Assembly (NCBI GenBank): GCA_016800925.1
Contig: JABCPU010000085.1
Location: 62,001 to 126,000, forward strand
DNA: 64,000 nucleotides
DNA from: Suillus spraguei
Lineage: Eukaryota; Basidiomycota; Agaricomycetes; Boletales; Suillaceae
Direction of reading: 5' to 3'
In this document: piece after piece, positions 5,069 through 53,530 of the stretch
Position numbering within the stretch: the first letter of the stretch is position 1
Layout of the letters: the number at the start of each line of letters is the position of its first letter
The notes under the pieces: model-generated
Databases searched by the model: none
Told to the model about the DNA's origin: nothing
Seen by the model: only the letters and a program-made list of their open reading frames with translations
Made by a program: the position numbers and the translations under genes

Positions 5069-5321
5069 GACGGAACTAAAAGACTAATATGAAGTACATA
5101 CGACGAGTTGCATGTTGTGAGTATTGTCTACCATAAGACCCTGCCCCAGCAGACAATAATCACGGATATATATAAATAAAAACAAAAAGCTTCTGAAGCT
5201 TAAAGTCGTAGTCAAATCGAAAATATAACAACGAAAGTGAAACATAGTGAGATAATGATAATTTATAGGGTAAGCGGGGCTTGTGATACATACATCTCAA
5301 TCTCAAATCCTTCGCACGCCC

Positions 5322-6984
5322 CTAATCCTTCACAGGAAACGCTTCTTGACTGAAGGGCCTCCTGCCCTCGTCTGTCCACTCCTCTGTCAATCTCGCAGCC
5401 CGAAGGAAGAGCGATCCATCCAACGCTTCTGCGCCCTCCAGTCCCGTATCCTTGAAGTAGCCCTTGGGCCGTGTTCCATAAATCGACGAGAAATGCGCAA
5501 AGGCACGCTGAATCTTCGACATATGATCATTCGGGTGCGTTATCGCAGACTGAACGATGTCGAGGAATTCGTTGGTCACCTTGTCTTCTGACGATTCAGA
5601 AAGATGCGAAGTGCCATTAACGAACCCTTGAATGTCGAGCGAAGGGAAGCCGCGTGCGATCCACCACCCAAGAGTCGATGCAAAGTATGCCCGAAGCAAA
5701 ATAATTTGCGACTTTTGCGTCAGGTAGGGCAAAAGGGACGTGAGGAAGAGGGTTGGCGTGACCAGATGCATGCTGGAGCGACCAAAAAGTCAGTATTTTT
5801 TTCGCAGATCCAGATTGAAGCCACTTGCAAGATGAAGTCTGCTGTGAAGCCCTTGCCTTCCTTCCATCCGCCAACGGTGTAGATGATGGCGTTCGCCCAA
5901 ATACATTCTTCCATCTTACGTTCGATTTCGCCCGGCTGAGACACGTCGATCGTCCATTCTTCAGCGTAGCGCCATACAGTATCGCCGTGCGTGGACATCA
6001 GGCCCTCGAGATCTTTAAAATACTTCTTGACTTCCTTCCGTGAGAATTCCGGATCTTGCTGGATCTTGGCAAGAATAGAAAATGCATGATTTCTTGGCTG
6101 TCGTTCGAGCCGAGAGGACGCAGGAGATGTCTTTGCATTAAGGAAAAGCGAGGCGAGGCGACTCGTCTCCTTTTCTACAATCCCGCTGGGGTCGAAAAGA
6201 TGCGGCGGCAAAAACTCATTCTCGTGCACGCTGGCCATTCCAAGACCTCGACATGTCTGTCAGTGACCTGTTTGCGATGATATGTCGGGTCGCTCACCTT
6301 CGACAACCATGCCTGGGATGCCCATCTCCGCGCCGTATCCCACATGGATGAACGCGTGGAACGCACTTCCAAGGAAGCGCGACAACAAGGCCGGCTGTGC
6401 GGACGCGTCTCGTCCGTCTATGAAGTTGTACTTCTTAGAGAAGACGTATTCCTCGAGCGTGGCGCTAAGGCCCTTTTCCTCCAAAACCTTGGTAAAGAAG
6501 TTTTTGTACGCGAAGTAATATCTGACAGGAAATTGATTGAGCGGAGCTTCTGAAGCATTCATTTTAAACTCACTTGTTGTCGCCTAGATGATCGACGAAG
6601 TTCTCTTCTGTGATAGCCTCAGGAGGCGTGATGGCGAGGCGCTGGCGGCCGCTGTCTTGCTTGTAGTACTCTTCGATCAGAGATCCGCTCGCGCCTATGG
6701 AATAAAGTGCTAGCGCGCGATGCGAGATATGGCTTGATCGACGCTCGAGTCAGCAACATGAAAGACGAATCAGTTAAGACGCGCACGCACTTATGCAACG
6801 GCTTGTCGTGGAAGAAGATGTGGTGCTTCGTATGGTTGTCCTTCAAGACACGTATCAAAGCTTCCACTGTTTCTGCGGAGGGGCCAGGATACCGCGCAGG
6901 GGCAAGTACGTGAGGTGGATAGGATGGGGTGGGGAACAGGGCATCGAGTTCGCTGTCACGATAAGTCTGTTGAACTACAGCCAT
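5322..6984 (-). CDS. Questin oxidase-like protein, copy A
   Basis: Member of the questin oxidase-like family (DUF4243; relatives include the AflY type), thought to catalyse oxidative ring cleavage of anthraquinone-type substrates; the substrate here is unknown. Inferred exons on the minus strand are 6984-6791, 6732-6574, 6521-6298, 6246-5829 and 5772-5322, giving 481 residues, the same as the other copies. Conserved blocks are the start MAVVQQTYRDSELDALFP, the NHxSHRALALY block, SGSLIEEYYKQD, the histidine block FHAFIHVGYGAEMGIPGM, HAFSILAKI, LGWWIARGFP and FAHFSSIYGTRPKGYFKDT. The fourth intron begins GCAAGT instead of GTAAGT. It differs from copies C and D at few residues (for example KSQIILL versus KSQILLL, EDKV versus EAKV). 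No lesion is visible. A TATA-like site lies 75 bases upstream. Confidence 0.85.
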
Positions 6985-7850
6985 CTTTGAGTTTGAGTGG
7001 GGATATCAGAATGCAGGAAGGCTTGTTTTGCTGAGTGCATCCCGAATCACCAACATGCATTTATACCCTTGTCGGCTGCTCGTGCATCTGGGGACCGTCC
7101 AAACACCACGTAGTAGAGTAAGTGTTTTGTCAGATGCCAAGCCCAAACGACTGCAAATCCAAATCTGTCTGTGTGAAAATGTTTGAAATGCAGTTGATTC
7201 GCTGCAGAAGCGAGAAATTGGTCAGATCTGGAAAGGGTACGAAAATGACGTAGCAAATGACGCGGATTCCGAGGTGTCAGTCGTGAGATATCCTCAAAAA
7301 ATCACTATGTAGCTGCACCAAGGAACTGCAGTCTAGCGTCGCAAAGTAACAAAGCCATGTCTGTCTATGCATGGATTTACGAAGAACGTTAATGACTCGT
7401 CAAGGACATCAGAAAACACCATTCACGAGAGCGGTAGGACCAAAACGCAGAATTAATCGTGCACTACAATGAATGTTGCTGATCGGAATGATGCTAGCCA
7501 TTCGTTCTCCACGTGGGATCATGCGCGAAGCTTTGCGGTCGGGTTCATGAGAAGCAGCGAACCAATCCATGCGAGCAAGGTGTTTCGGACGCCGGAATGT
7601 TGACAGAAGGAGCATGGAGATAGCTTTGGAAGGAATTGGTACGAATAAACCTGCGGGTGCCGAAGGTCAGACATGCACCAGTACCCCGCCCCCCTGGTTA
7701 CTTCTAGAAGGGTAGCATAGCTTTGGGAGGGATTGTGGATTCGTCCGGGACCCGTGGTTGCCGAATGTAAGACCCATACCGGTACCCGCCAATTACTTGT
7801 GGACACTGTCTCGGCGTAAGCGTCGAGTCTGCCATCTCAGAATAGAACAT
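6985..7850 (-). other. QOX upstream region, part of a segmental duplication
   Basis: This region is alignable by eye with 38434-39220, the upstream region of QOX copy C, but with indels and substitutions that increase away from the gene. Together with the gene and about 160 bases downstream it makes a duplicated segment (about 5160-7830 versus about 36600-39220). The open frames in it (for example 7519-7806) are not conserved in length between the copies and are not supported as genes. Confidence 0.7.
7059..7065 (-). promoter_or_regulatory. TATA-like box of QOX copy A
   Basis: TATAAAT on the minus strand, 75 bases upstream of the start codon and at the same place in copies C and D; copy B has one 66 bases upstream. 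Conservation of the motif and of its distance supports a core promoter. Confidence 0.6.
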
Positions 7851-14620: not shown

Positions 14621-14685
14621 ACATGCTCCCGAGGATGCATCCACCGAAACACCCCCCTTCTGCATTCTGGTAGGCCCGCTCAAAG

Positions 14686-16341
14686 ATGGCTGCAGTCCAA
14701 CAGACTTATCCTGGTAGCGAACTCGATGCCCTGTTCCCTTCTCCATCTTCCCCACCGAACGTGCTTTCTCCTCCGCAGTATCCTGGTGCTTCCCCAGAAG
14801 CAGCTGCAGCTTTGACATATGTCATGAAGGAGAACTACACAAAGTACCATATTTTCTTTAACTACAAGCGATTCCATAAGTGTGTATGCGTCTTGACTAA
14901 TTCGTGTCTCATGTTGCTGATTCGAGCGTCGATGAAGCCATATAACTCATCGCGTTCTGGCACTTTATGCCATGGGCGCGAGTGGATCTTTGATCGAACA
15001 TTTCTACGAGGAAGACAGCGCCTACCAGCGCCCGGTCATCGAGCCTCCCGAGGTTATCACAGAAGAGAACTTCATCGAACATCTAGGTGACGACAAGTAA
15101 GTTAATAGTTGTTTCAAAAGCGCCGCTCAATCAAGTTCTGTCAGCTTTTACGCTGCGTACAAAACTTTCTTTAGTAAAGTTTTCGAGGAAAGGGGTCTCA
15201 GCGGTACGCTAGAGGAATACATCTTCTCTAAGAAATACAACTTTATGGAGGGACGAGACGCATCCGCTCAGCCAGTGATGTTTGCGCGCTTCCTTGGAGC
15301 TTTGTTCCACGCCTTCATCCATGTAGGATACGGCGCGGAAATGGGCATCCCAGGCATGGTTATCGAAGGTGAGCGACGTGAAACATAATCGCAAACAGTT
15401 CCCTGACAGATATCTCAAGGTCTTGCCATGGCCAGCGTGCACGAGCATGAATTCTTGCCGTCGTATCTTTTTGACCCCAGCGGCACGACTGCAGTGGAGG
15501 AGGCAACGACACGCCTTACCTCGCTTGTCCTTAATACAAAGACATCTACTGCGCCCTCTCAGCTCGAACAACCGCCAAAAAATCATGCTTTCTCCATTCT
15601 TGCCAAGATCATGCAAGATTCGAAATTCGCACCGAAGGAAGTCGAGAAGCATTTTAAAAATTTCAACGGCCTGATGTTTGAGCATGGTGATGTTATATGG
15701 CGCTACGCTGAGCAATGGACGATCGACCCATCGCAACCAGGCGAAATCGAACGTAAGATAGAAGAATGTATTTGGACGAGCACTATCCTCTACAGCATTG
15801 GTGGATGGAACAAGGACAAAAGCTTAGCAGCAGACTTCTTCCTGTAAGTGACGTCAATCTGCATCTGCGAAAATACTAATTTGCTGGGCGCTTCAGCATG
15901 CATCTGGTCACGTCGAGTCTCTTCCTTCCATCCCTGTTGCCTTACCTGCCGCAAACCTCACAAGTTCTTTTACTTCGCGGATACTTTGCATCGATTCTTG
16001 GGTGGTGGATCGCACGCGGCTTCCCAAGATTGGACATTCAAGGCTTCCTTGGAGCCACCTCATATATTTCGTCAGAGGCCAAGGTCGCCAACCCATTCCT
16101 CGACATCGTTCAGTCTGCAATAATCCATCCGAACGAACATATGCCAAAGATTCAGCGCGCCTTTGCGCATTTCTCTTCCCTTTATGGCGCACGGCCCAAG
16201 GGCTACTTCAAGGATACGGAACTGGAGGGTGCAGAAGCACTGGATGGATCGCTCTTCCTTCGGGCCGCGAGATTGACTGAGGAGTATATGGGCGAGGGTA
16301 CGAGGCCCTGGGGCCAAGGTGGGTTTCTTGTAAGGGAGTGA
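14686..16341 (+). CDS. Questin oxidase-like protein, copy B (diverged)
   Basis: Same family as copies A, C and D. Exons 14686-14879, 14938-15096, 15145-15368, 15420-15843 and 15897-16341 join in phase to 481 residues. Conserved blocks include NHITHRVLALYAMGASGSLI, FHAFIHVGYGAEMGIPGM, HAFSILAKI, LGWWIARGFP and FAHFSSLYGARPKGYFKD. It differs from the others at many positions, with two compensating two-residue indels (PSGTTAVEEATTRL in exon 4; a shorter GATSYISSEAK in exon 5). Intron 4 has the canonical GTAAGT donor where A, C and D have GCAAGT. It is followed by a RecQ-like helicase element. No lesion is visible. This copy represents an older branch than the A/C/D group. Confidence 0.87.
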
Positions 16342-16596
16342 GGGATTTACGCTGTATTACAAACACCGTTCAGCCAATGATTTTTAAATGTGTTGATTGT
16401 CTGACGAGTCGCCCAGTCGCCGATGTCCATTCGTGGCGAGTCATGCATCTCAAAGGGGGTAATGATTGTCTGTGCGAACTGTCACAAACTGACTCGTGCC
16501 ATTTATCTTCCTTGAACCCTGGTCTCTTCTCTGAACCATGGCGCGAGTGTCGGACTCCGTTCCAGCCTGGGAATATTAATCCCGAAATCAGGATTC

Positions 16597-19240
16597 TGAG
16601 CAGGCTCCTTCCCACCACTCCTTCGAGTGTAGAGGGGCGGCATACTAGGATGCGGAACTATCCGAAATCACGTGACTAATTCAATCCCAGCACAACCCCC
16701 TCTCACTCTCAGTAGCGGCTGGAAGATAACATTTGTAAACATCGTCAGCTACAGTGGCTGAACCGATCGGAACGTGAAATTTACTTTGTGTAGACCGAAC
16801 TTAGGGTTAGAAAAGACATAGGTATTTTTTGTATTAGTCAATCAAAAGAATTCTCGCTACGTAGCAACACGTGCTCGCCATTAATGGCTTCGGCCGCTCC
16901 TATTCCTTCCTTGAGCCAAATCTGGTCTGTGACACAACAAAAATTTGGTATCAGACCTTGTTTATGGCAACTGAAGGTTGCAGAAGCACTGCTGAAAGGT
17001 GACCATGATGTTCTCTGTACTGCAGGTACAGGAATGGGCAAGACACTAGGTTTCTGGATACCATTGTTATTCCGTCAAGGTATACAAATTGTGATCACAC
17101 CTCTAAATATGCTTGGCAAGCAGAATGCCGCATTGCTTGCCAAGGCAGGCATACAAGCTATTTCAATAAGCAGTGAGACTGCAACCCCTGCAAATTTTGC
17201 TGTGAGTCTGACTTTGGACTGCAAAACTTCACTCACAGAATAATACCTCAAGGCTATTTGTGCACTCAAGTACCAAGCGGTACCTGTTAGTTCCGAGCAG
17301 ATTATGAAACCCAATGGAGAGTTTGAAAGGCTACTAAAGGATGACTTATTCTTATTCAGTTCCTGGATTATCAGCATCATCATTGATGAGGCACACTGTC
17401 TTACCGATTGGGGAGATTTTTGGCCAGAGTACAAGGAGCTTGGACGTCTCCGCTATATCTTGCCGCAGACAGTCCCCATCATGATTACATCTGCCACACT
17501 CACCAAACACGCTCTCTCAAATGCAGTACACCTCCTTCACATGCGGGCTGACAAGTTGACCACTATCTGATGTTCTACGGATTGACCAAATATTAAACTT
17601 GGAGTCCATAAAATAAAATACACACTTCACAGCTACACCGACCTAGCATTCTTGAAACCAGCTGGTTGGAAAAGAGGGGATCAGCCACCTCCAAAATTCC
17701 TCATTTTTTTCAATGACATACAAGATGCCATCAATGCTGCGTGTTCACTTTGCAAGCGCCTGCCTTCTGAGTTCCGTGACAAAGTCAAATGGTTTAACTC
17801 AGACATGTCGAGTACTTACAAGGATGCAGAGCTTGAGAACCTCCTATCAGGAGAAACATGGGGTTTCTGTACAACTGACTCATTTGGAATGGTAAGGCGC
17901 AAAAAACTTGAATCAAACAACAACTTACAGACTGCTAAAAGGGTATGGATGTTCCAGATATCAAGATTGTCATCCAGTGGCGGGCAACCTGCCACCTTGC
18001 TACATTATGGCAATGCTTGGGGCGTGCTGCACGAAACAAGTACTTGATGGGCACAGGGTTGCTTTTTGCTGAGAAAGAGCACTTTGATGATGAGTGGGAG
18101 GCTCAGGCCATCAGAAAAACACAGTGTGAGAACACTCGCAAGCAGAAAGCAATGGACTTACTGGAGGCACGAAACAATAAACACCGCACAGTTGTTCCAT
18201 CAGTACCCACTAATGTCCCCCCAGCTTTGTCCTCTCAAGTGGCCAGTGAAGAAGATTCAGATATCAAGCTTGATACCACTGTGATACCAAGTGTGAATAG
18301 TTTGCAGAATTCCAAGGATGCAATTGAAAACGCTCACGTAAACAAGACAACTAATACCCGAGCTGAAAAGAGGAGGAGGGAGTTGGATTTTGGCATGGAT
18401 TACCTCATAAATGCTGATAAACATATGGCATTGATGTGTAGAAGGAAGATCTTTGATGTGTGCTTTGATAATGAAGCAGCTGGTGAGAAATTTCAATTGA
18501 ATTGAAATGGACTGCACTTAAACCTCTCAGACTTTGACCACCTCACTTGCGACCCAGAATAAATTATAGGCTGTTCTCGCTGCCTAGTTTCACAGGCCAT
18601 GATTTGTTGTGACATTCACCATCCTGAGCACTTTTCTACCTACTCCTCACCAAATGATGATCCCTCTGTCATATCCTGGCATTCCCGCATTCCAAAATAC
18701 AAACAGGAAGCGCGTGACCTTGCATTGCAGGACACCCTTGATGATTGGCGCGAGGAGAAGATGATTTCAATATATGGCTCGGCTCATCTCAATGACCTCG
18801 GCCCCTCCCTTGTCCTACCCAATTCCATGCTAGATCATATCATAGACTGCGTGCACCACTGCAAAATCTACAGCACGCTCGACCTAAAGAAGGAGACTGG
18901 GTGGACAGACATTGATAGGTTTGGTAGTGAGATCATTACACTTATTCAAAGGCACGCACCACCTGTTGCAAGCCCTTTTGCTATAACTCCTCTAAGGTGT
19001 GCTGCCAATACTAATGTTCCACCTGTATTGCAAACACCATCCACATCATCTCCTTGTCCTGCTGCCACATTCATTTTCCAATGCTCCCAAGCGTAAGAAC
19101 AAGTGTGGTGCCTGTAGTCAAGAGGGTCACAATGGTGAGTTTCTGGCTGTTTGTATTATAACTCTAACAATATTTATTCATCAACAGTGCACAATTGTGT
19201 CTGTCCAAGACACCCATCTCACACCAGACCGGACAAAGAA
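16597..19240 (+). pseudogene. RecQ-like DEAH helicase of a repeated element, decayed
   Basis: Superfamily 2 DNA helicase of the RecQ type. The start is ATG 16884 (MASAAPIPSLSQIW). Walker A is AGTGMGKT, motif Ib region ITPLNML, motif II DEAHCLTDWG, motif III SATL, and motif VI QCLGRAARN (RecQ usually QR.GRAGR). Then a cysteine cluster (CSRC..., CCDIHHP) resembles the RecQ zinc-binding region, and a CCHC zinc knuckle CGACSQEGHNVHNC is completed across an intron near 19135-19188. Introns such as 17892-17941 can be drawn, but stops (TGA near 17568, TAA near 17614, TGA 18505 and TAA near 18560) and frame changes show it is dead. The 5' leader from 16597 (CAGGCTCCTTCCCA) to the start is shared with 39358 onward, so the unit is a repeated element. 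RecQ-type genes linked to telomeres are known in fungi. Confidence 0.8.
16798..16810 (+). repeat. Telomere-like motif in the helicase element leader
   Basis: ACTTAGGGTTAG lies about 75 bases before the helicase start codon; the fungal telomere unit is TTAGGG. The second copy of the element at 39.5 kb has ATTAGGGTTAG at the same place, followed by the same AAAA. Confidence 0.45.
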
Positions 19241-32274: not shown

Positions 32275-32414
32275 CTGCTAATCTCTCTCAAAAGTATAGT
32301 CCTGTTTGTGTCCTAACTACATTGATTCGTCCCTTGCTGCTATCGCCTCTCACCATCTCTTATCTCACTCTCATTCTGTTCTCTTTTCCCCTTTGAACCA
32401 CTGCAAGCCTTACA
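32275..32414 (+). repeat. 140-base inverted repeat, left copy
   Basis: CTGCTAATCTCTCTCAAAAG through GCAAGCCTTACA; its reverse complement lies at 33648-33787 with only scattered differences (for example CTATCGCCTCTCACCATCTC versus the same sequence inverted). Confidence 0.8.
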
Positions 32415-32429
32415 TATGACAGATTGAAG

Positions 32430-33640
32430 CCACGGACTCAGGACATTTCGAAAGCCTGACACAAATGTCCATAAGCTCAGTAATAAGGTAACAAATTTGT
32501 ACACACCTTTTTCATGACAGTAGGCTTATTGACAGTATGGAAGGCATCCTATAGCCATGCAACATTTCGATCACGTAGCACACCAATATGTTTGTCAATC
32601 AATACATTTTTCTCTCCTTGATCCAGCTGTTTGGCTACTTCTCTCACAACATCAGCATGGTAAGATCATTTTAAGAAATTCTTGAAAACCCGCTGAATCC
32701 CAACATCGCAGGGCTGGAACAGGCCTTTGCAGCCACCTGGAACATAGTTCAAGATGATTGTAGGGTGTTTGTTCTTTATCCATGTGCAAAACTCATCTGA
32801 TCAGTGTACTGACCAGATGTCAATCTGCTACACAGCCTTCTGCATCAGAGGTAAGCCCAGCTCTTCCTTCTTTTGGTCAAAATAATTTGCAATAAGCTTA
32901 TCATCCAGGCTACTCATCATCTCTTGGGTGGACCAGTAGGTTGTCATGTCAGAGTACTCAAAGAGGAAGCCTGTGTCCATGCACTCATTATAATAATGTG
33001 AGTTTGCACTAGGACAAGAAAACTTTGAATGACCTTGATAGATAGCCTGGAGTTGGAGTACTGTGCTGTTATTGGCAATGGACACCATGATCGTAAATGC
33101 GCATTTTTCATCATTACCCACAGTTGAGACTTTTTTGGATCCCGTCTTTGCCCATGTCAGGTTAGATCCTTGTACATAGATTACCTGTGTTTGGTCAGAG
33201 TTAACATAGAGTTCTGTAGGAATGTCCTCGTCCTTGATCGTGTATGCCAGACGCAAAAATGCATTCTCACACATTTCCTCCCAGTTGCTTGGTATTTTCT
33301 GAGCTGCCCATGTGGCTCAACGTTCAGACCAGTGCAAGGTTGTGTGCAACTAGTTTCAGAGGAATGAGTCAGAGCATTGAAAGGTAAATCCATCTTTTGC
33401 TTTCTGCTCAAGGATCTTGGGGGCTTTCTCAGAGACCATAGCAAGCACAATGGCACGAATTGTAACAAGGGTGAGTGTTACACCAACTTCCTGAAGGGAT
33501 TCAAGCTGATGAATGATATCCTTCTCGACATCAGGATAATTTGTCTAATGTATTGTTAATGTATCATCTTGAAAATACTTCATCAAGCATGTACAAAGAC
33601 TCCTCATTGGTCATCATTTGAGTGACCTTGGTGGTTACTG
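32430..33640 (-). pseudogene. DDE_1 transposase relic of a Ulp1/HTH/DDE_1 element
   Basis: Minus strand, in order: DIIHQLESLQEVGVTLTLVTIRAI near 33510, KILEQKAKDGFTFQCSDSFL near 33410, then an open frame 33274-32828 with ENAFLRLAYTIKDEDIPTEL, YVNSDQTQVIYVQGSNLTWAKTG (first Asp), VSIANNSTVLQLQAIYQGHS and TTYWSTQEMMSSLDDK. After a stop come QIDIWSVH (second Asp), HPTIILNYVPGGCKGLFQPCDVGIQR near 32720 and VNKPTVMKK near 32525. This is the catalytic half of a family of mushroom DDE_1 elements. Nonsense codons and frame changes are present. Confidence 0.75.
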
Positions 33641-33647
33641 AGTTCTG

Positions 33648-33787
33648 TGTAAGGCTTGCGGTGGTTCGAAGGGGAAAAGAGAACAGAACGAGAGTGAGAT
33701 AAGAGATGGTGAGAGGCGATAGCAGCGAGGGACAAATCAACGTAGTTAGGACACAAACAGGACTATACTTTTGAGAGAGATTAGCAG
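33648..33787 (-). repeat. 140-base inverted repeat, right copy
   Basis: TGTAAGGCTTGCGGTGG through GAGAGATTAGCAG; inverted partner of 32275-32414. Together the two copies enclose the DDE_1 relic. Confidence 0.8.
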
Positions 33788-34259
33788 ACGAGACGCTCTA
33801 AGGACTTTCTAAGGTGCTTTTTGAGCAGGGAATCTAGGATAGAATTCACTGTTGATACCAGAGTGTACATGAGCCAGATATACAGAAAATGATTAAGGGT
33901 CCTCGGTGATGGATGAGCTGGACGATTAGGTGAGAGCAGAGGCAGAAGAGAGTGGTGTCGTGCTTGACAGGGTAGAGTAGAACAGAGAGGAACAAGAGTA
34001 CAAAAATTTGAATGAGTGGCAGTATAATGAGTATGGTTTTGGTAGAATAGCAAGGGTCGAATATTAGTTTTGAGATGGCAAATTGAGAGTAGGGTGACAT
34101 TAACACAAGAAAGGGCCTGAAAGTTGACAGAGATGATGAAGTTGTTGTAAGGGATAGGGACCAGGAGCATATGTGTTGACGACAGCAGTAAAGGAAGAAG
34201 GAATGTATCCACATGACTTTTGGATGCAAAGTGTGACACTGTTTGCATCACTAGGTCAC
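33788..34259 (-). other. Low-complexity insert inside the composite element
   Basis: A 156-codon minus-strand frame (34251-33781) is rich in Leu, Ser, His and Pro with no domain. It separates the HTH part (upstream) from the DDE_1 part, where related genes are continuous, so it is more likely inserted or intronic sequence than a gene. Confidence 0.45.
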
Positions 34260-35815
34260 GTGGACCGTCTGGAACATGTCATAAGGTCTGAGTGTCAGAG
34301 TTTGATCTGAAGCATTGGGCTGGGAGCAGAGGACATCCAGTCCTTACATCTGCCATATGAAGGGCAGCTTCACTCCACCGTGGTTTATTTCCACTTTGAT
34401 CTATCCACCCTTCCACTGTGCTACATGCAAGGTTCTTAAAGATTTTAGGATTGTGATTCTTCAGTCATTGGACTAAGCAAGTGGCACTCCACTGGACTCC
34501 AGGATGTTTTGCAGCTGCGTCAATTTGACTCCAGGTGAATGGCCCATGCCAATTATGATACATGGCATCCTTGTGTTCATGTTTCTGCTTGCAACCTTGA
34601 GCACGAGTTTCTTCTGACGTATAAACTCTTTCTCAGCACAATTTGGACGCGAAAGCTCTGTAATTGATGTCTTCTGGCATTTAGGTTAGTCATCTCTCAA
34701 ATCAACAAGGTGGCAATGCTAAATAATTTGTGTTACTTCATCTGATCCAATCATCAAGTCTACTCCTACATACCTTCAACTGACACTTTGATCCTCCAGG
34801 TGTTTGCTCTCCTTGAGCAATCTCTGCATTATACTGAGCTTTACAGACTTTCTGTTGTCACTCCTTATTCTTCTGGCACACAGCCATTCTTTTGCATAAG
34901 GCATCCATCTCACTGAACTCTTTAGCATCCTCCCACCCTTGTTCAAGTTTTGCATTGACTTTTCCATCTGCTTGTCTAGCTCTTCTTGTGTGCAAGGCTT
35001 CACAAATTTCATGATGTCTCACACATGCCCTGCAGCCTGGTCTTGGATTGCCTCATGGATTGCTGATATCCAATATTCCTTTGTGCGCTTGGTATGAGGT
35101 TGCTTATCTCTTGTGTTGTCATCAGTGGACTCATTGAGTCAGTCATCAGGGCTTGATGTGTATTGGTTTTCAGCCATGGGCAACTCAACATCACTTGAAA
35201 TGTCAAGATTGTAGCATTGTTTTGACTCACTATCACTTGAGTGAGACTGGGGTGTGGCATGGGCAGTTTGGGTGTTGTCCTCAGGTGCCATGAATGTAAA
35301 TTCGAAGTTTTCACTGATCGATTCAAAACTCTAGGGTTATTTACAATCAGCAGATCAGAGAGCAATAACAGTGTACATACCTGATCAAGGTGTTGTTCCA
35401 TAACTTCTAACATCATCTCAAGCTGACCATTGGCAACAAGCATAGCATCTACGAGGGGATATGAGTCAGGGAGGAAGTGATGGGCTAATGCATTGAAGGA
35501 CAGCAAGCCACACAAAAATGTGTCTTGTTGGTGAGTGATGGCAAGTGGCTGCACCGTAAACTGACACCCTGAATGATGCTTGGTCCAACACTCTAGAACG
35601 TCCTTCATGACACACTTGCTCTGATCTAGCGAGTCTCCAAGTAAGATGAGGTCATGTTTGAAATCCAGGATGACCGCAACCCAATGGTCATCATTGATAT
35701 TCACCAGGAATGCAACCTGTCTCCGGAGCCCCGAGGATAGTGCATGCCCAATTTCACAAGCACGTATGAAATATTTATCTTCTTCATACTCCCTTGTCTG
35801 ATGTGTTTGCCATAG
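34260..35815 (-). pseudogene. Ulp1-type cysteine protease plus HTH domain, 5' truncated
   Basis: Minus-strand open frame from the palindrome edge at 35815. It reads QTHQTREYEEDKYFIRAC, then NINDDHWVAVILDF (catalytic His), LILLGDSLDQ (catalytic Asp), and THQQDTFLCGLLSFNALAHHF (oxyanion Gln and catalytic Cys), the C48/Ulp1 pattern of SUMO-protease-like proteins often carried by eukaryotic transposons. It continues as a charged helix (CTQEELDKQMEKSMQNL, 35012-34776) and, after further frame changes, HNWHGPFTWSQIDAAAKH, FKNLACSTVEGWID and GNKPRWSEAALHMADV (HTH region, about 34560-34330). The true N-terminus is missing because the left palindrome edge cuts it; the first 23 codons of the open frame (35884-35816) are antisense ICMT sequence. 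Confidence 0.75.
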
Positions 35816-36282
35816 CAATATGGTGCCCTTTGCGGACACTGAGTGAGTTGGAAGGTGAAAAAACGTCCGAGGGTGCAATAACACCGCCAGCGGATGAGAC
35901 CCTCTCCGGCAGCGAGTGCGGTACCCAAGATGAAAGAGAGAGTAATGGGAGTGTCACAGATTTTTTGATCGATCGTGTACTGCGTGATCACTTTAATGAC
36001 CCGTATGACGGACAGAGAGTCTGTTGTGTGAGAAATAATGGTAGCGATCTCTGCGAAAGAAACAGCCCGGTAAATTGCCTGACGCGTCGCTCTATAAAAA
36101 CAATCAATGCAAACACTCGCCTTTATAACCGGAAACCCATATATAATAAGCCAAGAAAAGACCCACTCATTATATGTTTGGTGAATGATCTCTTTACTTG
36201 GGGGAACGTTTGGAGGTGTGAACGAAATTTGTTGCATGATAGCAGACGAGAGAATAAGTAGAACTTTGAAAAGTGACGCCAT
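35816..36282 (-). pseudogene. ICMT-like methyltransferase, truncated copy
   Basis: Isoprenylcysteine carboxyl methyltransferase family, membrane enzymes that methylate the C-terminal prenyl-cysteine of proteins such as fungal pheromone precursors. This copy starts at 36282 (MASLFKVLLILSS), has the same sequence as the right copy down to the block LGRFFTFQL, and is then cut at 35816 where transposon sequence begins. The S-adenosylmethionine-binding C-terminal half (GPYAVVRHPSY onward) is absent. Confidence 0.85.
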
Positions 36283-36770
36283 CTTCACGAAAGCAACTGA
36301 CCTTCCAATGGATGGTTTTTATGCATGAATAACTCGCGCGCTGGTGCTGTACCCAGTGATCGAAATGCAGCAGAGTCCGCATCCATAAAATCAGGTACTT
36401 CAAGTTGCTTAGTCCATTTCAACCCTTCAATATTCAAACTTAACTCGACACGCCAGCCTGAGAGAGAACAAACGGACTAAAATTGCTCGCCCATAATTGT
36501 CGAAAAAAAATCATCGCCTTGCATCTAACGAAAACTGGAGAAGGTAGTGGACAAGTGCTTGTATGCATTCTGTGCTTAATGGTTAAATAAGAGGTTACGT
36601 GTCCCAACGGACAATAAATACTGATAAGAAAAGCCCCTGAAGCATAATTAAGTCATAGTCAAATGCAAAACATAACACTCAAAGTGAAATATATACTCGG
36701 AAACGAAATATTTAAAAAGAAAAGCCATAGGATGAGCAGTGCTTGTAATGCACAAATCCTTCGCACGCCC

Positions 36771-38433
36771 CTAATCCTTCACAGGAAACGCTTCTTGACT
36801 GAAGGGCCTCCTGCCCTCGTCTGTCCACTCCTCTGTCAATCTCGCAGCCCGAAGGAAGAGCGATCCATCCAACGCTTCTGCGCCCTCCAGTCCCGTATCC
36901 TTGAAGTAGCCCTTGGGCCGTGTTCCATAAATCGACGAGAAATGCGCAAAGGCACGCTGAATCTTCGACATATGATCATTCGGGTGCGTTATCGCAGACT
37001 GAACGATGTCGAGGAATTCGTTGGTCACCTTGGCCTCTGACGATTCAGAAAGATGCGAAGTGCCATTAACGAACCCTTGAATGTCGAGCGAAGGGAAGCC
37101 GCGTGCGATCCACCACCCAAGAGTCGATGCAAAGTATGCCCGAAGCAAAAGAATTTGCGACTTTTGCGTCAGGTAGGGCAAAAGGGACGTGAGGAAGAGG
37201 GTTGGCGTGACCAGATGCATGCTGGAGCGACCAAAAAGTCAGTATTTTTTTCGCAGATCCAGATTGAAGCCACTTGCAAGATGAAGTCTGCTGTGAAGCC
37301 CTTGCCTTCCTTCCATCCGCCAACGGTGTAGATGATGGCGTTCGCCCAAATACATTCTTCCATCTTACGTTCGATTTCGCCCGGCTGAGACACGTCGATC
37401 GTCCATTCTTCAGCGTAGCGCCATACGGTATCGCCGTGCGTGGACATCAGGCCCTCGAGATCTTTAAAATACTTCTTGACTTCCTTCCGTGAGAATTCCG
37501 GATCTTGCTGGATCTTGGCAAGAATAGAAAATGCATGATTTCTTGGCTGTCGTTCGAGCCGAGATGACGCAGGAGATGTCTTTGCGTTAAGGAAAAGCGA
37601 GGCGAGGCGACTCGTCTCCTTTTCTACAATCCCGCTGGGGTCGAAAAGATGCGGCGGCAAAAACTCATTCTCGTGCACGCTGGCCATTCCAAGACCTCGA
37701 CATGTCTGTCAGTGATCTGTTTGCGATGATATGTCGGGTCGCTCACCTTCGACAACCATGCCTGGGATGCCCATCTCCGCGCCGTATCCCACATGGATGA
37801 ACGCGTGGAACGCACTTCCAAGGAAGCGCGACAACAAGGCCGGCTGTGCGGACGCGTCTCGTCCGTCTATGAAGTTGTACTTCTTAGAGAAGACGTATTC
37901 CTCGAGCGTGGCGCTAAGGCCCTTTTCCTCCAAAACCTTGGTAAAGAAGTTTTTGTACGCGAAGTAATATCTGACAGGAAATTGATCGATCGGGACTTTT
38001 GAGGCATTAATTTTAGACTCACTTGTTGTCGCCTAGATGATCGATGAAGTTCTTTTCCGTGATAGCCTCGGGAGGCGTGATGGCGAGGCGCTGGCGGCCG
38101 CTGTCTTGCTTGTAGTACTCTTCGATCAGAGATCCGCTCGCGCCTATGGAATAAAGTGCCAGCGCGCGATGTGAGATATGGCTTGATCGACGCTCGAGTC
38201 AGCAACATGAAAGACGAATCAGTTAAGACGCGCACGCACTTATGCAACGGCTTGTCGTGGAAGAAGATGTGGTGCTTCGTATGGTTGTCCTTCAAGACAC
38301 GTATCAAAGCTTCCACTGTTTCTGCGGAAGGACCAGGATACCGCGCAGGGGCAAGTACGTGAGGCGGATAGGATGGGGTGGGGAACAGGGCATCGAGTTC
38401 GTTGTCACGATAAGTCTGTTGAACTACAGCCAT
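36771..38433 (-). CDS. Questin oxidase-like protein, copy C (left palindrome arm)
   Basis: Questin oxidase-like (DUF4243) enzyme; exons by correspondence with copy D are 38433-38240, 38181-38023, 37970-37747, 37695-37278 and 37221-36771, giving 481 residues. It is the exact mirror of copy D at 41334-42996 and nearly identical to copy A. The conserved histidine block FHAFIHVGYGAEMG and the end FSQEAFPVKD are present. Intron 4 uses a GC donor (GCAAGT). No lesion is seen. Its 5' neighbour is the helicase element fragment and its 3' neighbour the truncated ICMT gene, transcribed in the same direction. Confidence 0.87.
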
Positions 38434-38507
38434 CTTTGAGTTTGAGTGGGGATATCAGAATGCAGGAAGGCTTGTTTTGCTGAGTGCATCCCGAATCACC
38501 AACATGC

Positions 38508-38514
38508 ATTTATA
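38508..38514 (-). promoter_or_regulatory. TATA-like box of QOX copy C
   Basis: TATAAAT on the minus strand, 75 bases upstream of the start codon, mirror of 41253-41259. Confidence 0.6.
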
Positions 38515-39357
38515 CCCTTGTCGGCTGCTCGTGCATCTGGGGAACGTCCAAACACCGCGTAGTGGAGTAAGTGTTTTGTCAGACGACAAGCCCAAACGAC
38601 ACGATTCTCTTGCAAATCCAAATCCGTCTGTGTGAAAATGTTTGAAATCCAGTTCATTCGCTGCAGAAGCGAGAAATTGGTCAGACCTGGAAAGGATACG
38701 AAAAAAACAACAACGACGTAGCAAATGACGCGGATTCCGAGGTGTCAGAGTCGTGAGATATCCTCAAAAAATCACTATGTAGCTGTCACCAATTAGTTCT
38801 AGGAACTGCAGTCTAGCATCGCAAAGTAACAAAGCTATGTCTGTCTATGCATGGATTTACGAAGAACGTTAATGACTCGTCAAGGATGTCAGAAAACTCC
38901 ATTCACGAGAGCGGTAGGACCAAAACGGGAATGATGCTAGCCATTCGTTCTCCACTTGGGATCATGCTCGAAGCTTTGCGGTCGGGTTCATGATCATGAG
39001 AAGCAATAAGCCAATCCATGCGAGCAAGGTGTTTCGGACGCCGGAATGTTGACGGAAGGAGCATAAGGAGATAGCTTTGGGAGGGATTGGTACGAATAAA
39101 CCTGCGGGTGCCGAAGGCCAGACCTGCACCAGTACCCCCCCAGTTACTTGTAGAGGGGTACCATAGCTTTGGGAGGGATTAAGGATCCGCAGACCGAGGT
39201 AATCAGGTAGTATACAAAGTCCCACACTACTCCCAAATGCGGAGTGTGCATAAGTAGCATTTTGTCCTCGGACGACGCCACGGCGTCGCTATAAGCGTTT
39301 TACATAAGGCCTGGTCAATTCTAAAATGTCGTTGTCAATGTCGACTTGACCTTACGG

Positions 39358-39911
39358 CTCAGGCTCCTTCCCAGCCACTGCTTCGAGTGTGGAGGTGGCA
39401 TACTAGGGTGCGGCACTATCCGAAGTCATGCAAAAATTCAAACCCAGCACAACCTCACACTCTCAGCAGCGGCTGGAACATAACACATGTAAACATTGTC
39501 AGCCACAGTGGCTGAAACAGCGGCAAACGAAATCTATTGGTGTAGAATGATATTAGGGTTAGAAAATATTTGGTATTAATATTGCTGGAGTTCGAAATAA
39601 CATGCGACGTGTCCGCCATTAATGGTGCGATGGCTCCTATTCAATCCCTCAGTCCGGAGATTCCTTCTTTATCTCAGATTTGATCTGTGACACAGGAAAA
39701 ATTTGGAGTCAGGGCTTGTTTATGGCAACTAAAGGTTGCAGAGGCTTTATTGAAGGGTGACCGTGATGTACTCTGTACTGCGGGGATGGGCATGGGCAAG
39801 ACATTAGTGTTCTGGATGCCTTTGTGATTTTGTCAAGGTATTCAAATTGTCATCACTCCCCTCAATATGCTCAGCAAACAGAATGCCACGTCACTCGCCA
39901 AGGCAGGCATA
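39358..39911 (+). pseudogene. 5' part of the RecQ-like helicase element, left arm and spacer
   Basis: Begins with the same leader as 16597 (CAGGCTCCTTCCCAGCC), includes ATTAGGGTTAG near 39553, and a start MAPIQSLSPE near 39631. It reads KFGVRACLWQLKVAEALLKG, Walker A as AGMGMGKT (the Thr of AGTGMGKT is Met), FWMPL, then ITPLNMLSKQN and LAKAGI. TGA codons replace Trp in SQIW and a Leu after MPL. The frame continues through the 56-base spacer to 39911, in line with the copy at 17030-17155, so left arm plus spacer are colinear with the element. Confidence 0.8.
39856..39911. other. Asymmetric spacer (56 bases) at the palindrome centre
   Basis: Only unpaired part of the inverted repeat. It encodes TPLNMLSKQNATSLAKAG-type helicase sequence colinear with the left arm. 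The right arm then starts abruptly with TGATGACAATTTGAA, the complement of 39841-39855. Confidence 0.9.
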
Positions 39912-40409
39912 TGATGACAATTTGAATACCTTGACAAAATCACAAAGGCATCCAGAACACTAATGTCTTGCCCATGCCCATCCCCGCAGTACAGAGTACA
40001 TCACGGTCACCCTTCAATAAAGCCTCTGCAACCTTTAGTTGCCATAAACAAGCCCTGACTCCAAATTTTTCCTGTGTCACAGATCAAATCTGAGATAAAG
40101 AAGGAATCTCCGGACTGAGGGATTGAATAGGAGCCATCGCACCATTAATGGCGGACACGTCGCATGTTATTTCGAACTCCAGCAATATTAATACCAAATA
40201 TTTTCTAACCCTAATATCATTCTACACCAATAGATTTCGTTTGCCGCTGTTTCAGCCACTGTGGCTGACAATGTTTACATGTGTTATGTTCCAGCCGCTG
40301 CTGAGAGTGTGAGGTTGTGCTGGGTTTGAATTTTTGCATGACTTCGGATAGTGCCGCACCCTAGTATGCCACCTCCACACTCGAAGCAGTGGCTGGGAAG
40401 GAGCCTGAG
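39912..40409 (-). pseudogene. 5' part of the RecQ-like helicase element, right arm
   Basis: Mirror copy of 39358-39855 with the same stops and the same AGMGMGKT motif; it ends at the palindrome centre. Confidence 0.8.
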
Positions 40410-41252
40410 CCGTAAGGTCAAGTCGACATTGACAACGACATTTTAGAATTGACCAGGCCTTATGTAAAACGCTTATAGCGACGCCGTGGCGTCGTCCGAG
40501 GACAAAATGCTACTTATGCACACTCCGCATTTGGGAGTAGTGTGGGACTTTGTATACTACCTGATTACCTCGGTCTGCGGATCCTTAATCCCTCCCAAAG
40601 CTATGGTACCCCTCTACAAGTAACTGGGGGGGTACTGGTGCAGGTCTGGCCTTCGGCACCCGCAGGTTTATTCGTACCAATCCCTCCCAAAGCTATCTCC
40701 TTATGCTCCTTCCGTCAACATTCCGGCGTCCGAAACACCTTGCTCGCATGGATTGGCTTATTGCTTCTCATGATCATGAACCCGACCGCAAAGCTTCGAG
40801 CATGATCCCAAGTGGAGAACGAATGGCTAGCATCATTCCCGTTTTGGTCCTACCGCTCTCGTGAATGGAGTTTTCTGACATCCTTGACGAGTCATTAACG
40901 TTCTTCGTAAATCCATGCATAGACAGACATAGCTTTGTTACTTTGCGATGCTAGACTGCAGTTCCTAGAACTAATTGGTGACAGCTACATAGTGATTTTT
41001 TGAGGATATCTCACGACTCTGACACCTCGGAATCCGCGTCATTTGCTACGTCGTTGTTGTTTTTTTCGTATCCTTTCCAGGTCTGACCAATTTCTCGCTT
41101 CTGCAGCGAATGAACTGGATTTCAAACATTTTCACACAGACGGATTTGGATTTGCAAGAGAATCGTGTCGTTTGGGCTTGTCGTCTGACAAAACACTTAC
41201 TCCACTACGCGGTGTTTGGACGTTCCCCAGATGCACGAGCAGCCGACAAGGG

Positions 41253-41259
41253 TATAAAT
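41253..41259 (+). promoter_or_regulatory. TATA-like box of QOX copy D
   Basis: TATAAAT, 75 bases upstream of the start codon, conserved in copies A and C and at 66 bases in copy B. Confidence 0.6.
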
Positions 41260-41333
41260 GCATGTTGGTGATTCGGGATGCACTCAGCAAAACAAGCCTT
41301 CCTGCATTCTGATATCCCCACTCAAACTCAAAG

Positions 41334-42996
41334 ATGGCTGTAGTTCAACAGACTTATCGTGACAACGAACTCGATGCCCTGTTCCCCACCCCATCCTATC
41401 CGCCTCACGTACTTGCCCCTGCGCGGTATCCTGGTCCTTCCGCAGAAACAGTGGAAGCTTTGATACGTGTCTTGAAGGACAACCATACGAAGCACCACAT
41501 CTTCTTCCACGACAAGCCGTTGCATAAGTGCGTGCGCGTCTTAACTGATTCGTCTTTCATGTTGCTGACTCGAGCGTCGATCAAGCCATATCTCACATCG
41601 CGCGCTGGCACTTTATTCCATAGGCGCGAGCGGATCTCTGATCGAAGAGTACTACAAGCAAGACAGCGGCCGCCAGCGCCTCGCCATCACGCCTCCCGAG
41701 GCTATCACGGAAAAGAACTTCATCGATCATCTAGGCGACAACAAGTGAGTCTAAAATTAATGCCTCAAAAGTCCCGATCGATCAATTTCCTGTCAGATAT
41801 TACTTCGCGTACAAAAACTTCTTTACCAAGGTTTTGGAGGAAAAGGGCCTTAGCGCCACGCTCGAGGAATACGTCTTCTCTAAGAAGTACAACTTCATAG
41901 ACGGACGAGACGCGTCCGCACAGCCGGCCTTGTTGTCGCGCTTCCTTGGAAGTGCGTTCCACGCGTTCATCCATGTGGGATACGGCGCGGAGATGGGCAT
42001 CCCAGGCATGGTTGTCGAAGGTGAGCGACCCGACATATCATCGCAAACAGATCACTGACAGACATGTCGAGGTCTTGGAATGGCCAGCGTGCACGAGAAT
42101 GAGTTTTTGCCGCCGCATCTTTTCGACCCCAGCGGGATTGTAGAAAAGGAGACGAGTCGCCTCGCCTCGCTTTTCCTTAACGCAAAGACATCTCCTGCGT
42201 CATCTCGGCTCGAACGACAGCCAAGAAATCATGCATTTTCTATTCTTGCCAAGATCCAGCAAGATCCGGAATTCTCACGGAAGGAAGTCAAGAAGTATTT
42301 TAAAGATCTCGAGGGCCTGATGTCCACGCACGGCGATACCGTATGGCGCTACGCTGAAGAATGGACGATCGACGTGTCTCAGCCGGGCGAAATCGAACGT
42401 AAGATGGAAGAATGTATTTGGGCGAACGCCATCATCTACACCGTTGGCGGATGGAAGGAAGGCAAGGGCTTCACAGCAGACTTCATCTTGCAAGTGGCTT
42501 CAATCTGGATCTGCGAAAAAAATACTGACTTTTTGGTCGCTCCAGCATGCATCTGGTCACGCCAACCCTCTTCCTCACGTCCCTTTTGCCCTACCTGACG
42601 CAAAAGTCGCAAATTCTTTTGCTTCGGGCATACTTTGCATCGACTCTTGGGTGGTGGATCGCACGCGGCTTCCCTTCGCTCGACATTCAAGGGTTCGTTA
42701 ATGGCACTTCGCATCTTTCTGAATCGTCAGAGGCCAAGGTGACCAACGAATTCCTCGACATCGTTCAGTCTGCGATAACGCACCCGAATGATCATATGTC
42801 GAAGATTCAGCGTGCCTTTGCGCATTTCTCGTCGATTTATGGAACACGGCCCAAGGGCTACTTCAAGGATACGGGACTGGAGGGCGCAGAAGCGTTGGAT
42901 GGATCGCTCTTCCTTCGGGCTGCGAGATTGACAGAGGAGTGGACAGACGAGGGCAGGAGGCCCTTCAGTCAAGAAGCGTTTCCTGTGAAGGATTAG
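41334..42996 (+). CDS. Questin oxidase-like protein, copy D (right palindrome arm)
   Basis: Exons 41334-41527, 41586-41744, 41797-42020, 42072-42489 and 42546-42996 join in phase to 481 residues. Domain blocks as in the other copies: YRDNELDALFP at the start, NHISHRALALYSIGASGSLI, FHAFIHVGYGAEMGIPGMV, RYAEEWTIDVSQPGEIERK, LGWWIARGFP, FAHFSSIYGTRPKGYFKDTG, EALDGSLFLRAARL. The histidine-rich FHAFIHVGYG segment is the most likely catalytic or metal site, by family analogy. Introns 1-3 are GT-AG; intron 4 starts GCAAGT. The predicted residue across that junction is Phe, where copy B has Leu. Same strand as, and upstream of, the ICMT gene. Substrate unknown. Confidence 0.88.
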
Positions 42997-43484
42997 GGGC
43001 GTGCGAAGGATTTGTGCATTACAAGCACTGCTCATCCTATGGCTTTTCTTTTTAAATATTTCGTTTCCGAGTATATATTTCACTTTGAGTGTTATGTTTT
43101 GCATTTGACTATGACTTAATTATGCTTCAGGGGCTTTTCTTATCAGTATTTATTGTCCGTTGGGACACGTAACCTCTTATTTAACCATTAAGCACAGAAT
43201 GCATACAAGCACTTGTCCACTACCTTCTCCAGTTTTCGTTAGATGCAAGGCGATGATTTTTTTTCGACAATTATGGGCGAGCAATTTTAGTCCGTTTGTT
43301 CTCTCTCAGGCTGGCGTGTCGAGTTAAGTTTGAATATTGAAGGGTTGAAATGGACTAAGCAACTTGAAGTACCTGATTTTATGGATGCGGACTCTGCTGC
43401 ATTTCGATCACTGGGTACAGCACCAGCGCGCGAGTTATTCATGCATAAAAACCATCCATTGGAAGGTCAGTTGCTTTCGTGAAG

Positions 43485-44238
43485 ATGGCGTCACTTTTCA
43501 AAGTTCTACTTATTCTCTCGTCTGCTATCATGCAACAAATTTCGTTCACACCTCCAAACGTTCCCCCAAGTAAAGAGATCATTCACCAAACATATAATGA
43601 GTGGGTCTTTTCTTGGCTTATTATATATGGGTTTCCGGTTATAAAGGCGAGTGTTTGCATTGATTGTTTTTATAGAGCGACGCGTCAGGCAATTTACCGG
43701 GCTGTTTCTTTCGCAGAGATCGCTACCATTATTTCTCACACAACAGACTCTCTGTCCGTCATACGGGTCATTAAAGTGATCACGCAGTACACGATCGATC
43801 AAAAAATCTGTGACACTCCCATTACTCTCTCTTTCATCTTGGGTACCGCACTCGCTGCCGGAGAGGGTCTCATCCGCTGGCGGTGTTATTGCACCCTCGG
43901 ACGTTTTTTCACCTTCCAACTCACTCAGTGTCCGCAAAGGGCACCATATTGTCACGACCGGACCATACGCTGTCGTCCGCCATCCATCGTACACCTCAGG
44001 CATTACACATATCATCCTGCACGCATCGCCCACTTCGTGGCTTAGACACTCCGGACTTTTAGATATCCCTGGATTCAAATTTGTTGTGGTGGAATGGCTG
44101 CCGCAGATCACGCTTCTTATGATAAACTTCATGTACAGGGTCAGCCAAGAGGATGAAGCACTGGAGTCAGCTTTCGGAGATAAGTGGGAGAGGTGGCCGA
44201 AGGCAGGTAAGTACCGACTGATACCTGGCGTCTATTGA
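43485..44238 (+). pseudogene. ICMT-like methyltransferase with a 4-base duplication frameshift
   Basis: Isoprenylcysteine carboxyl methyltransferase family, a multi-pass membrane enzyme using S-adenosylmethionine. The start at 43485 gives MASLFKVLLILSS with a hydrophobic N-terminus, then SFTPPNVPPSKE, ITLSFILGTALAAG, IRWRCYCTLGRFFTFQL up to 43922. The next family block SVRKGHHIVTTGPYAVVRHPSYTSG begins in another frame at 43927. Between them ACTC is repeated in tandem (43919-43922 and 43923-43926); deleting one copy would join the blocks as FQLSVRKGHH. The rest (YRVSQEDEALESAFGDKW, YRLIPGVY and stop) is intact. The lesion also exists in the left arm, so it predates the palindrome or was copied with it. 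A missed intron is unlikely because the shift is only 4 bases. Confidence 0.8.
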
Positions 44239-44467
44239 AACGACAGCTGACATATTGGTGCTTTGCGATGGTCCCAATTATTCACCGTTAATATTAATCT
44301 TGAATGTAGGCAACGTGATCATACGAGAAGATCATCGCTCTTTTTCCTCCGAAATTGAAGGGCACGCTGGTAACTAGACTGACGTGCGATATTTTTTGAT
44401 TTCGACTTGCTATTTATGTACGTAATGCAATACCGTCTGCTGTCAGCCTCAGTCAAGCGAAACAACA
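44239..44467 (+). other. Spacer downstream of the ICMT gene
   Basis: AT-rich, no gene seen. Confidence 0.4.
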
Positions 44468-44770: not shown

Positions 44771-45589
44771 AATGAGGCGAAGTCGAGCGCCTATATTGTT
44801 GGGTTGTTCAACATCTAGGTACTTGTTATGAGTTCTCCTGCATGACAGAAATGGCAGGGTGCGAGCACCAAGGGCAGATGATATGGAAAGCCAGACCACC
44901 GTAAGCCAGACCACCGTGCTCTACTTCCCAGGCTTCCACTTCTGAGAACCTTCCTGGTAAGGTAAGTGCTTCCATTGGCCTCTGAACATCCCATGCGAGC
45001 ATTCTAACGTGACATGTAGATTTATTCATGCTACCGAAAGGGAGTAGGTTATGCCACTGGGACCTCATTCAAATCGGTCGACTTCCTGTGTCTGTTGCTT
45101 TTGACCTTGAATCGCATTCTTTTCTTCTTCAACTACTCATTCGCTCGGCCATTTGGGCCCAAGTTCGTATCTCGCTGAAATTTCCATGGCCTCAATGATT
45201 CATTGCCGTGCGTTCACCACCGATGTTGAGTTCGAGGTCGCGTGTGGTCTCGATGTTGTGTTTGGGATGAACTGGACTTCTGCGTGGCCGCCGTTTTGTG
45301 GGAAGATGAGACTCTATGTCTGACCTTCAAGGTGGTGACAGTGTCTCGTTGTCCTCGTTTTTTAATATCTGCTGATTTCCTTCTGTGTTTCTAGAAACTT
45401 CATGTATACTTAGTGGTAATTTCAATCATAATTGAACCTGCTGATGATAGTGAATTAGAATTATTTCAGTCTTCCTCCCTCGTCGGGGCATTTTTATGGT
45501 CTCGCAGACGTTCAGACCCAACCTTTATGCTGACCGTGTCAATCAGGGTCCACATACGTTTTCAACTTAGGAAGTCTCGTCAAGAGGAA
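44771..45589. other. Intergenic stretch
   Basis: No gene recognised. A short direct repeat AAGCCAGACCACCGT occurs twice at about 44890-44920. Confidence 0.4.
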
Positions 45590-46250
45590 GAGTTAAATAG
45601 CCTGGCCAGTGTGGTCACCACAACGGAATCAAAATCTGTTTCTCTTGGGCTACGTGGGTTTGAAACCTGCTGAACTACAGTTTTTTCTATCGGAACACAC
45701 TTTGTCATTCATTCATGGATGATTTCTTTACAAGTTCACCGTAACTTGCCTTAGCCGGTGGTTGCTACAACATAATCAAAATCTCTTGGACTATACAGGT
45801 TCGAAACCTGCCGAGTTTTTTTTCTCTCGGAACATACTTTAATATTCACTCATGGATGATTTCTTTAGAAGTTCGCCGTAACTGGTCTTAACCAGATGGT
45901 TACCACAACAGAATCAAAGTCTGTTTCTCTTGGACTGTGCAGGTTTGAAACCTGCCGATGACGAGGTTTTTTTCTGTTGGAACACAATTTGAAATTCACT
46001 CATAGATAGTTTCGGAAGTTCACTGTAACTGGTCTTAGCCTGGTGGTTGCCGCAATAGAATCAAAATCTGTTTCTCTTGGACTCGGTAGGTTCAAAACCT
46101 GCTGATGACAATGTTTTTTTCTATCAGAACATTCACTTATGGATGGTTTCCTTGGAGGTTCATCTTAACTGGTCTTCGCCCTGGTGCAAATTGTTGTTGC
46201 AACATTAATATTTACTCCATGGCGAGTCGTGCCTTCGGACATGTTTCAAA
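45590..46250 (+). repeat. Tandem array of four tRNA-Leu-like units with T-tracts
   Basis: Four units with a period of about 142-147 bases, plus a fifth cut-off unit near 46165. Each has an A-box-like word (TGGCCAGTGTGG at about 45603; TGGTCTTA.CC in others), an anticodon-arm-like hairpin with ACAGA/TCTGT stem and 7-base loop containing CAA at the anticodon position (Leu codon TTG), and a T-arm-like hairpin GCAGG-TTYGAAA-CCTGC carrying a B box (GGTTTGAAACC, GGTTCGAAACC, GGTTTGAAACC and GGTTCAAAACC near 45657, 45800, 45943 and 46090). A run of six to eight T follows 10-15 bases later, as in Pol III terminators. Acceptor stems do not pair well, so these are not mature tRNA genes; a tRNA-derived SINE or amplified tRNA pseudogene fits best. 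Confidence 0.65.
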
Positions 46251-52923: not shown

Positions 52924-53051
52924 TTTTCTTTACATGTCACCCCGTACATAGTTTTGTGTCAATACTTGTAACTTTGAGTTGTATATTTACAATACAAGTC
53001 GTTGACGGTTACTTTCCATAGAGTCGTGTGTGAAAGCTTCACCAGTAGGGA
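52924..53051 (+). other. FunK1 3' flank
   Basis: Short AT-rich spacer; no gene. Confidence 0.3.
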
Positions 53052-53530
53052 TTAAATACCTCGAAGCAGTGCGATGTATCTTGCCACCCAATCATTTGCG
53101 ACTTCCGATATCGTGCTGACTCTTGACTCGCAGCGTAATAACTTATGTATACTGGGTAATCCCACTGCCCCACAAGTGGTACTCGCAAGGATGTCATGTA
53201 GTACGTGCTCTGCCTCCGTGACCAATGGTTCGTGTGCAGCCAGCTTTACGATGAGCACCCTTCCTATGACTGTACCTTCTTGAACACCAGGCCCTCAGGG
53301 GGGCCATTCACGACTTTGTATTTGTAGTACGTACCACCGTTCTAGCATGACGCCTGATTGGGTCGTGATAGATGTGGCAGTCATGGGTGAACGTATTGTG
53401 AGTTTCTTGCTTGAGTGAGAGCATGAAAGCGGAGTGAAATCCCGATATTAAGTTGCGATGGTGGAGGGTGGTGTAGTGACTAAATGGTGCTTTTTGTGAG
53501 GCATGGGTTCATGAGAAGGGATCTTGTGAT
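53052..53530 (-). pseudogene. Second, more decayed DUF6914-like copy
   Basis: Minus strand; the block GTVIGRVLIVKLAAHEPLVTEAEHVLHDI matches GTVIGRVLIAKLPAQEPLVKQAERIHNI of the copy at 48931-49487, and an N-terminal MPHKKHHL lies near 53500. Stops and frame changes occur between them. Confidence 0.65.

Follow-up and report, generated by a model that had tools for sequence, protein, structure and literature searches.

The 64,000-nucleotide window of Suillus spraguei DNA analysed here (C1091:62001-126000) carries a perfect palindrome with 4-kb arms, which is probably an old inverted duplication whose arms were homogenised within each locus after two loci had separated. The argument draws on a second locus, contig C457 (89,885 bases), found in a search of the 86.2-Mb assembly of 1256 contigs. 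It holds the same palindrome, and at both loci the kilobase inverted arms are more than 99% alike.

The arms in the window (35816-39855 and 39912-43951) are reverse complements at 4040/4040 positions with zero mismatch, position p pairing with 79767-p, and are thus exactly what the preliminary description had claimed, including the 56-base centre; beyond the arms, pairing within the window is at chance level. A perfect 4-kb inverted repeat of 4040/4040 positions rules out a chance origin. The repeat finder returned the arms as the longest inverted pair in the window (I1; 4040 nt, 100%, 56 nt apart), followed by a pair of 1848 nt at 98%, formed by an arm and the third copy of the questin oxidase-like block, and by one of 446 nt at 97%. 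The last of these is a second inverted repeat (21233-21678 and 22834-23279, with 1155 nt between), to which several pieces at 20.6-25.9 kb are related. A tRNA scan and an Rfam scan of the window each gave 0 matches.

Table 1. Coordinates of the palindrome, its genes and related blocks in the window
Feature	Position	Strand	Remarks
Left flank	34350..35815		Only at the window locus and C457 among 40 of 212 candidates scored
Left arm	35816..39855		4040/4040 pairing with 43951-39912; sister arm C457 ~33982-38134
56-nt centre	39856..39911	+	Remnant of helicase-derived inner arm; same 56 nt in both C457 arms
Right arm	39912..43951		Sister arm C457 38285-~41965, 476 nt shorter
Questin oxidase-like gene, left copy	36771..38433	-	Five exons, 481 aa; 1663 nt identical to right copy
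Questin oxidase-like gene, right copy	41334..42996	+	PF14027; five exons, 481 aa
Right-copy exons	41334-41527, 41586-41744, 41797-42020, 42072-42489, 42546-42996	+	Splice model
Third questin oxidase-like block copy	5304..7743	-	Differs from the arms by 2.67% (2398 aligned positions); outgroup
Fourth, older questin oxidase-like block	14679..17345	+	About 80% alike; longer helicase stretch
Methyltransferase/reductase-like gene	43482..44235	+	Crosses right breakpoint 43951
Methyltransferase-like gene, left copy	35816..36288	-	Truncated at left breakpoint, fused to unrelated sequence
DEAD-box helicase gene start (fragment)	39660..39911	+	Inner end of left arm; mirror 39912-40107 on -

Each arm contains one complete gene, the questin oxidase-like one, with the start of a helicase gene at the inner end and part of a methyltransferase-like gene at the outer end (Table 1). 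Of ten pieces of the window compared with Pfam (E <= 0.001), six gave no family; matches were obtained for the questin oxidase-like gene, for a fungal protein kinase, for the helicase piece and for the methyltransferase-like gene in its second half. The kinase domain (51568-52302; PF17667, E 6.3e-10) lies in a stretch with many relatives, about 80% alike, across the genome.

The two "QOX" genes of the preliminary description are borne out if the abbreviation is taken as questin oxidase-like. The match to PF14027 covers profile positions 6-339 of 340 at 272.6 bits (cut-off 27, E 8.6e-81), a score that came from an earlier 478-aa splice; the corrected five-exon model, in which the last intron is GC-AG, gives 481 aa. 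The copies are divergent, the left one running down the minus strand and the right one up the plus strand. They are identical over their whole length, free of internal stops, and the reading frame is intact in all four arms at the two loci. The two proteins of C457 are likewise identical to each other and differ from those of the window at two residues, 356 and 385. The closest protein match, best of 120 listed, is one of 481 aa from Suillus decipiens (P0001; 449/481 residues equal, 93%), and many of the 120 are from Suillus. The third copy also has an intact frame when the arm gene model is applied to it, and the low dN (0.0045) against dS (0.0344) between it and the arm gene suggests selection on a working protein. 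With both genes intact and a TATAAA motif 81 nt upstream of the start codon, it is plausible that the palindrome doubles the dose of the gene.

At the outer end of the arms, residues encoded by 43909-44235 match ERG4_ERG24 (E 3.7e-7) and ICMT (E 1.7e-6), while 43482-43960, the first half of the gene, matches no Pfam family; by our reading the gene is isoprenylcysteine methyltransferase-like. Because an apparent frame change, seen by eye, lies near 43912, it may be a pseudogene, or a splice may have been overlooked. A paralogue (C363:83339-84252) aligns with 43465-44362 at 77%, unbroken across the right breakpoint. Since the gene is continuous there, as it is in the paralogue, and the left copy is cut at 35816, the right junction looks ancestral. 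At the inner end, the helicase fragment matches DEAD (PF00270, E 6.6e-7, for a 90-residue piece in which two stops were written as X) and is 81% alike to 16902-17153 in the fourth, older block.

The palindrome of C457 has a 150-nt centre, and its arms pair perfectly over an inner stretch of 3575 nt. The right arm lacks 476 nt (corresponding to about 43391-43866 of the window), and 4 nt are inserted within a few bases of this gap. Both contigs place the outer junctions at identical bases, and single substitutions lie close to the left junction. To the right of the palindrome C457 is collinear with the window at 98.8% over 10.3 kb (BLAST alignment), and to the left it is collinear in pieces at about 94-97%, with one block inverted; global alignment counted 102/10,192 and 27/6,246 substitutions on the right and 37/1,466 and 78/2,730 on the left. 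The bases joined from the two contigs (114,000 + 89,885) contain no N.

The inverted block, about 2 kb long (32275-34349 against C457 29400-31955), has at its two borders inverted copies of a dispersed repeat of 0.7 kb (33648-34348, and a 140-nt piece at 32275-32414), and its C457 version holds an insert of about 0.5 kb. On the other side of the palindrome, 45583-46186 is a cluster of imperfect tandem repeats with a spacing of about 140 nt (families D8 and D20), and the stretch with this cluster begins a dispersed repeat with many copies elsewhere.

We regard C457 as either a haplotig, that is, the other nuclear haplotype, or a segmental duplicate, and the argument for conversion holds either way. 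A full-length second copy of positions 51500-53500 of the window lies at C457 (99%); for 8300-10300 none of the 40 candidates scored, of 85 in all, is a full-length second copy. The RNA polymerase second-subunit domain occurs at three loci (C325, C480 and C411), and a single homeodomain pair lies on C325, a contig other than that of the window, in an assembly whose contigs are not placed on chromosomes. These counts are as in a haploid or collapsed assembly, against which stand equal-scoring contig pairs (C295/C551 and C382/C61); taken together the signs are equivocal.

The four arms, two from the window and two from C457, were aligned, and 20 substitution columns could be read in every arm. 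Left out of these are three columns in which C457 is represented by its left arm only, with a letter other than that of the window, and one column in the window centre, single-copy there and agreed on by both C457 arms. In 18 of the 20 columns both arms of each locus agree and the loci differ; the other two are specific to the C457 left arm, both within its outermost 71 nt, and none is common to corresponding arms across loci. A 1-nt indel outside these columns follows the locus pattern as well. Counted by pairs, the arms differ at 0/4040 positions in the window and at 2/3674 aligned positions, plus the gap, in C457, against 18/3564 to 24/4096 between loci; the 95% upper bound on arm divergence is 0.042% (0 in 2 x 3564) vs 0.505% between loci. 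On a correct assembly, arms are more alike within a locus than between loci, the pattern of concerted evolution.

Because both loci have the same outer breakpoints, the palindrome is, on this comparison, older than their split. In a duplication of that age new mutations would be expected on single arms; each of the 18 stands in both. Using the third copy as an outgroup, we could polarise 10 of the 18 sites, 5 derived in each locus, so arm-to-arm copying of mutations seems to have taken place in both lineages; exchange between the third copy and the arms may have occurred too, and the other 8 sites are unpolarised. The fourth copy supports 4 of the 10 polarisations, contradicts 2 and gives no information on the remaining 4. 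Eight of these 10 changes run from G/C to A/T, and the GC bias known for such conversion is not seen among them. Arm-specific substitutions are confined to the outer nucleotides that the C457 arm deletion severs (2/89 vs 0/3585, p = 0.0006), where there is little homology to copy with.

Of the origins proposed in the preliminary description, a palindrome maintained by conversion is accordingly the one that the data favour: 18 of 20 columns are locus-fixed, the polarised sites divide 5 + 5, and the breakpoints are shared with C457. A recent fold-back duplication, as put there, is not supported, given that C457 has the same breakpoints and carries other variants common to both its arms; a fold-back as the beginning of the palindrome is likely nonetheless. 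Support for it comes from the centre of C457, which aligns with the paralogue at 17.1-17.4 kb as the continuation of the left-arm helicase (score 253.5 vs 164.5 in the other direction). A single-copy centre that continues one arm, a mark of fold-back duplications, is thus present in C457.

The window lacks C457 38082-38393, 312 nt that comprise the 150-nt spacer together with 53 nt of the left arm and 109 nt of the right, and the imbalance between 53 and 109 nt of lost arm accounts for its 56-nt centre. As the missing sequence is helicase-derived and present in both C457 arms, the centre of the window is the derived state, reached by this off-centre loss. Such a loss would be expected if a hairpin tip were cut and rejoined. 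A crossover between the arms could have flipped the centre, which makes a fold-back origin less certain. The fold-back would have been primed by a short inverted repeat in the ancestor before duplication, and no relative lacking the duplication was found.

We propose the following history. An inverted duplication would have arisen of a block of about 4 kb comprising the methyltransferase-like part, the complete questin oxidase-like gene and the start of the helicase, probably through a fold-back within the helicase gene, with a break, fold-back priming and copying. The left methyltransferase-like copy may then have suffered the second break and been joined to the present left flank, which fits the cut gene on that side. 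Once two versions of the locus, nuclear haplotypes or products of a segmental duplication, had separated, each gained its own mutations, and, if the assembly is taken at face value, arm-to-arm copying, by gene conversion or an equivalent repair event, put these into both arms of their own locus. Later the centre of the window lost 312 nt off-centre and kept 56, presumably by cutting and rejoining. The likely outcome is two identical, divergently transcribed and apparently intact copies of an enzyme gene. Parallels for the first steps come from yeast, for which such fold-back products and their secondary rearrangements are described (PMC10622511). Origin-dependent inverted amplification (as outlined in PMC4689423) and template switching between inverted repeats (as outlined in PMC8604942) are possible mechanisms.

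The correctness of the assembly bears on all of this. Perfect palindromes arise from missed-adapter and fold-back reads, and the preliminary description had offered an assembly artefact as one of its options. That assembly or library preparation produced the entire palindrome is nevertheless highly improbable: a chimeric or fold-back read would re-enter the same flank, and here there are two different unique flanks, both of which recur with the same breakpoints in C457 around another centre, with an arm-specific 476-nt gap, two arm-specific substitutions and no N in the joined bases. Given the same two flanks in two contigs, we reject a chimeric read as unlikely. A subtler possibility is that the palindrome is real and that its arms were merged into one consensus per locus during assembly, which would give identity without conversion and the same locus-fixed pattern of columns. 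We think this rather unlikely, because the C457 arms are held apart by the 476-nt gap, the 4-nt insertion and two substitutions, the centre of the window is asymmetric, and the third copy, at 2.67%, was assembled separately; such evidence of separate arms counts against a general collapse, and less against collapse of the inner arms alone.

With two real loci, the identity of the window arms might still reflect a recent duplication without conversion, formed separately at each locus or shortly before the split. The common breakpoints, together with 18 substitutions that tell the loci apart in both arms, make this very unlikely, since each of the 18 must otherwise have arisen twice, and on these locus-fixed columns we reject it. 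We also reject a mobile element bounded by terminal inverted repeats of 4 kb, an idea to which the long inverted arms and the dispersed repeats nearby lend some appeal and which we consider barely credible. Paired arms with these ends occur only at the two loci among the scored matches (17/17 candidates; best 40 of 70), with no dispersed copies; no direct repeat that could be a target-site duplication abuts the outer ends; and a gene leaves through the right end, unbroken in the C363 paralogue. Closer to our preferred history is a single whole-arm copying event per locus, by a long break-induced copy or a re-formed hairpin, in place of repeated conversion. Identity is uniform over 3575 nt in C457 and 4040 nt in the window, for which one event per locus is enough, and the data, which come from two sister loci of one genome, fit repeated conversion equally. 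We give the single event a minor share of the probability, counting it in part apart from homogenisation by arm-to-arm copying, of which it is a variant.

Quick breakage is expected of a long palindrome whose centre is very short, as in yeast and bacteria. Among the papers that our literature searches listed, judged mostly by title and abstract opening, none described a nuclear gene palindrome with arm conversion in a mushroom, which is weak evidence of absence. We offer, as a speculation that we would ourselves rather doubt than assert, that mushroom nuclei may keep nearly spacer-free kilobase gene palindromes over evolutionary time, by trimming the hairpin tip off-centre and by continually copying from arm to arm, and that such palindromes may regularly hold matched pairs of metabolic genes outside sex chromosomes. 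A palindrome at two sister loci with different centres, in which the variants between loci are a natural record of arm copying, provides a small fungal system for palindrome survival and for the speed of arm homogenisation. It is also a warning that identical duplicates in an assembly are not necessarily recent.

Among known systems, human Y palindromes such as P6 have long inverted arms kept near-identical within a chromosome by arm-to-arm conversion that is GC-biased (as summarised in PMC3723533). Their arms are far longer than those in Suillus, where the centre is 56 or 150 nt, and P6 shows a GC bias whereas the 10 polarised Suillus sites show none; the human Y is a sex chromosome, and no location on a sex or mating-type chromosome is known for the Suillus palindrome. 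The hsp16 modules of Caenorhabditis elegans are inverted gene modules, 416 bp apart, that stayed identical while their flanks diverged, and conversion was proposed for them (as outlined in PMC3966223); they belong to another gene family, and each module already comprises two genes. For the fold-back inverted duplications of yeast, the proposed common origin is fold-back priming at a break, with secondary rearrangement of a dicentric product (as presented in PMC10622511). These are laboratory events, whereas the Suillus palindrome appears older than the split of its two loci and its priming step is deduced from sequence. We place the Suillus palindrome with the gene-conversion palindromes, a known kind, in which it is of interest because its centre is very short and because a second locus allows its history to be read.
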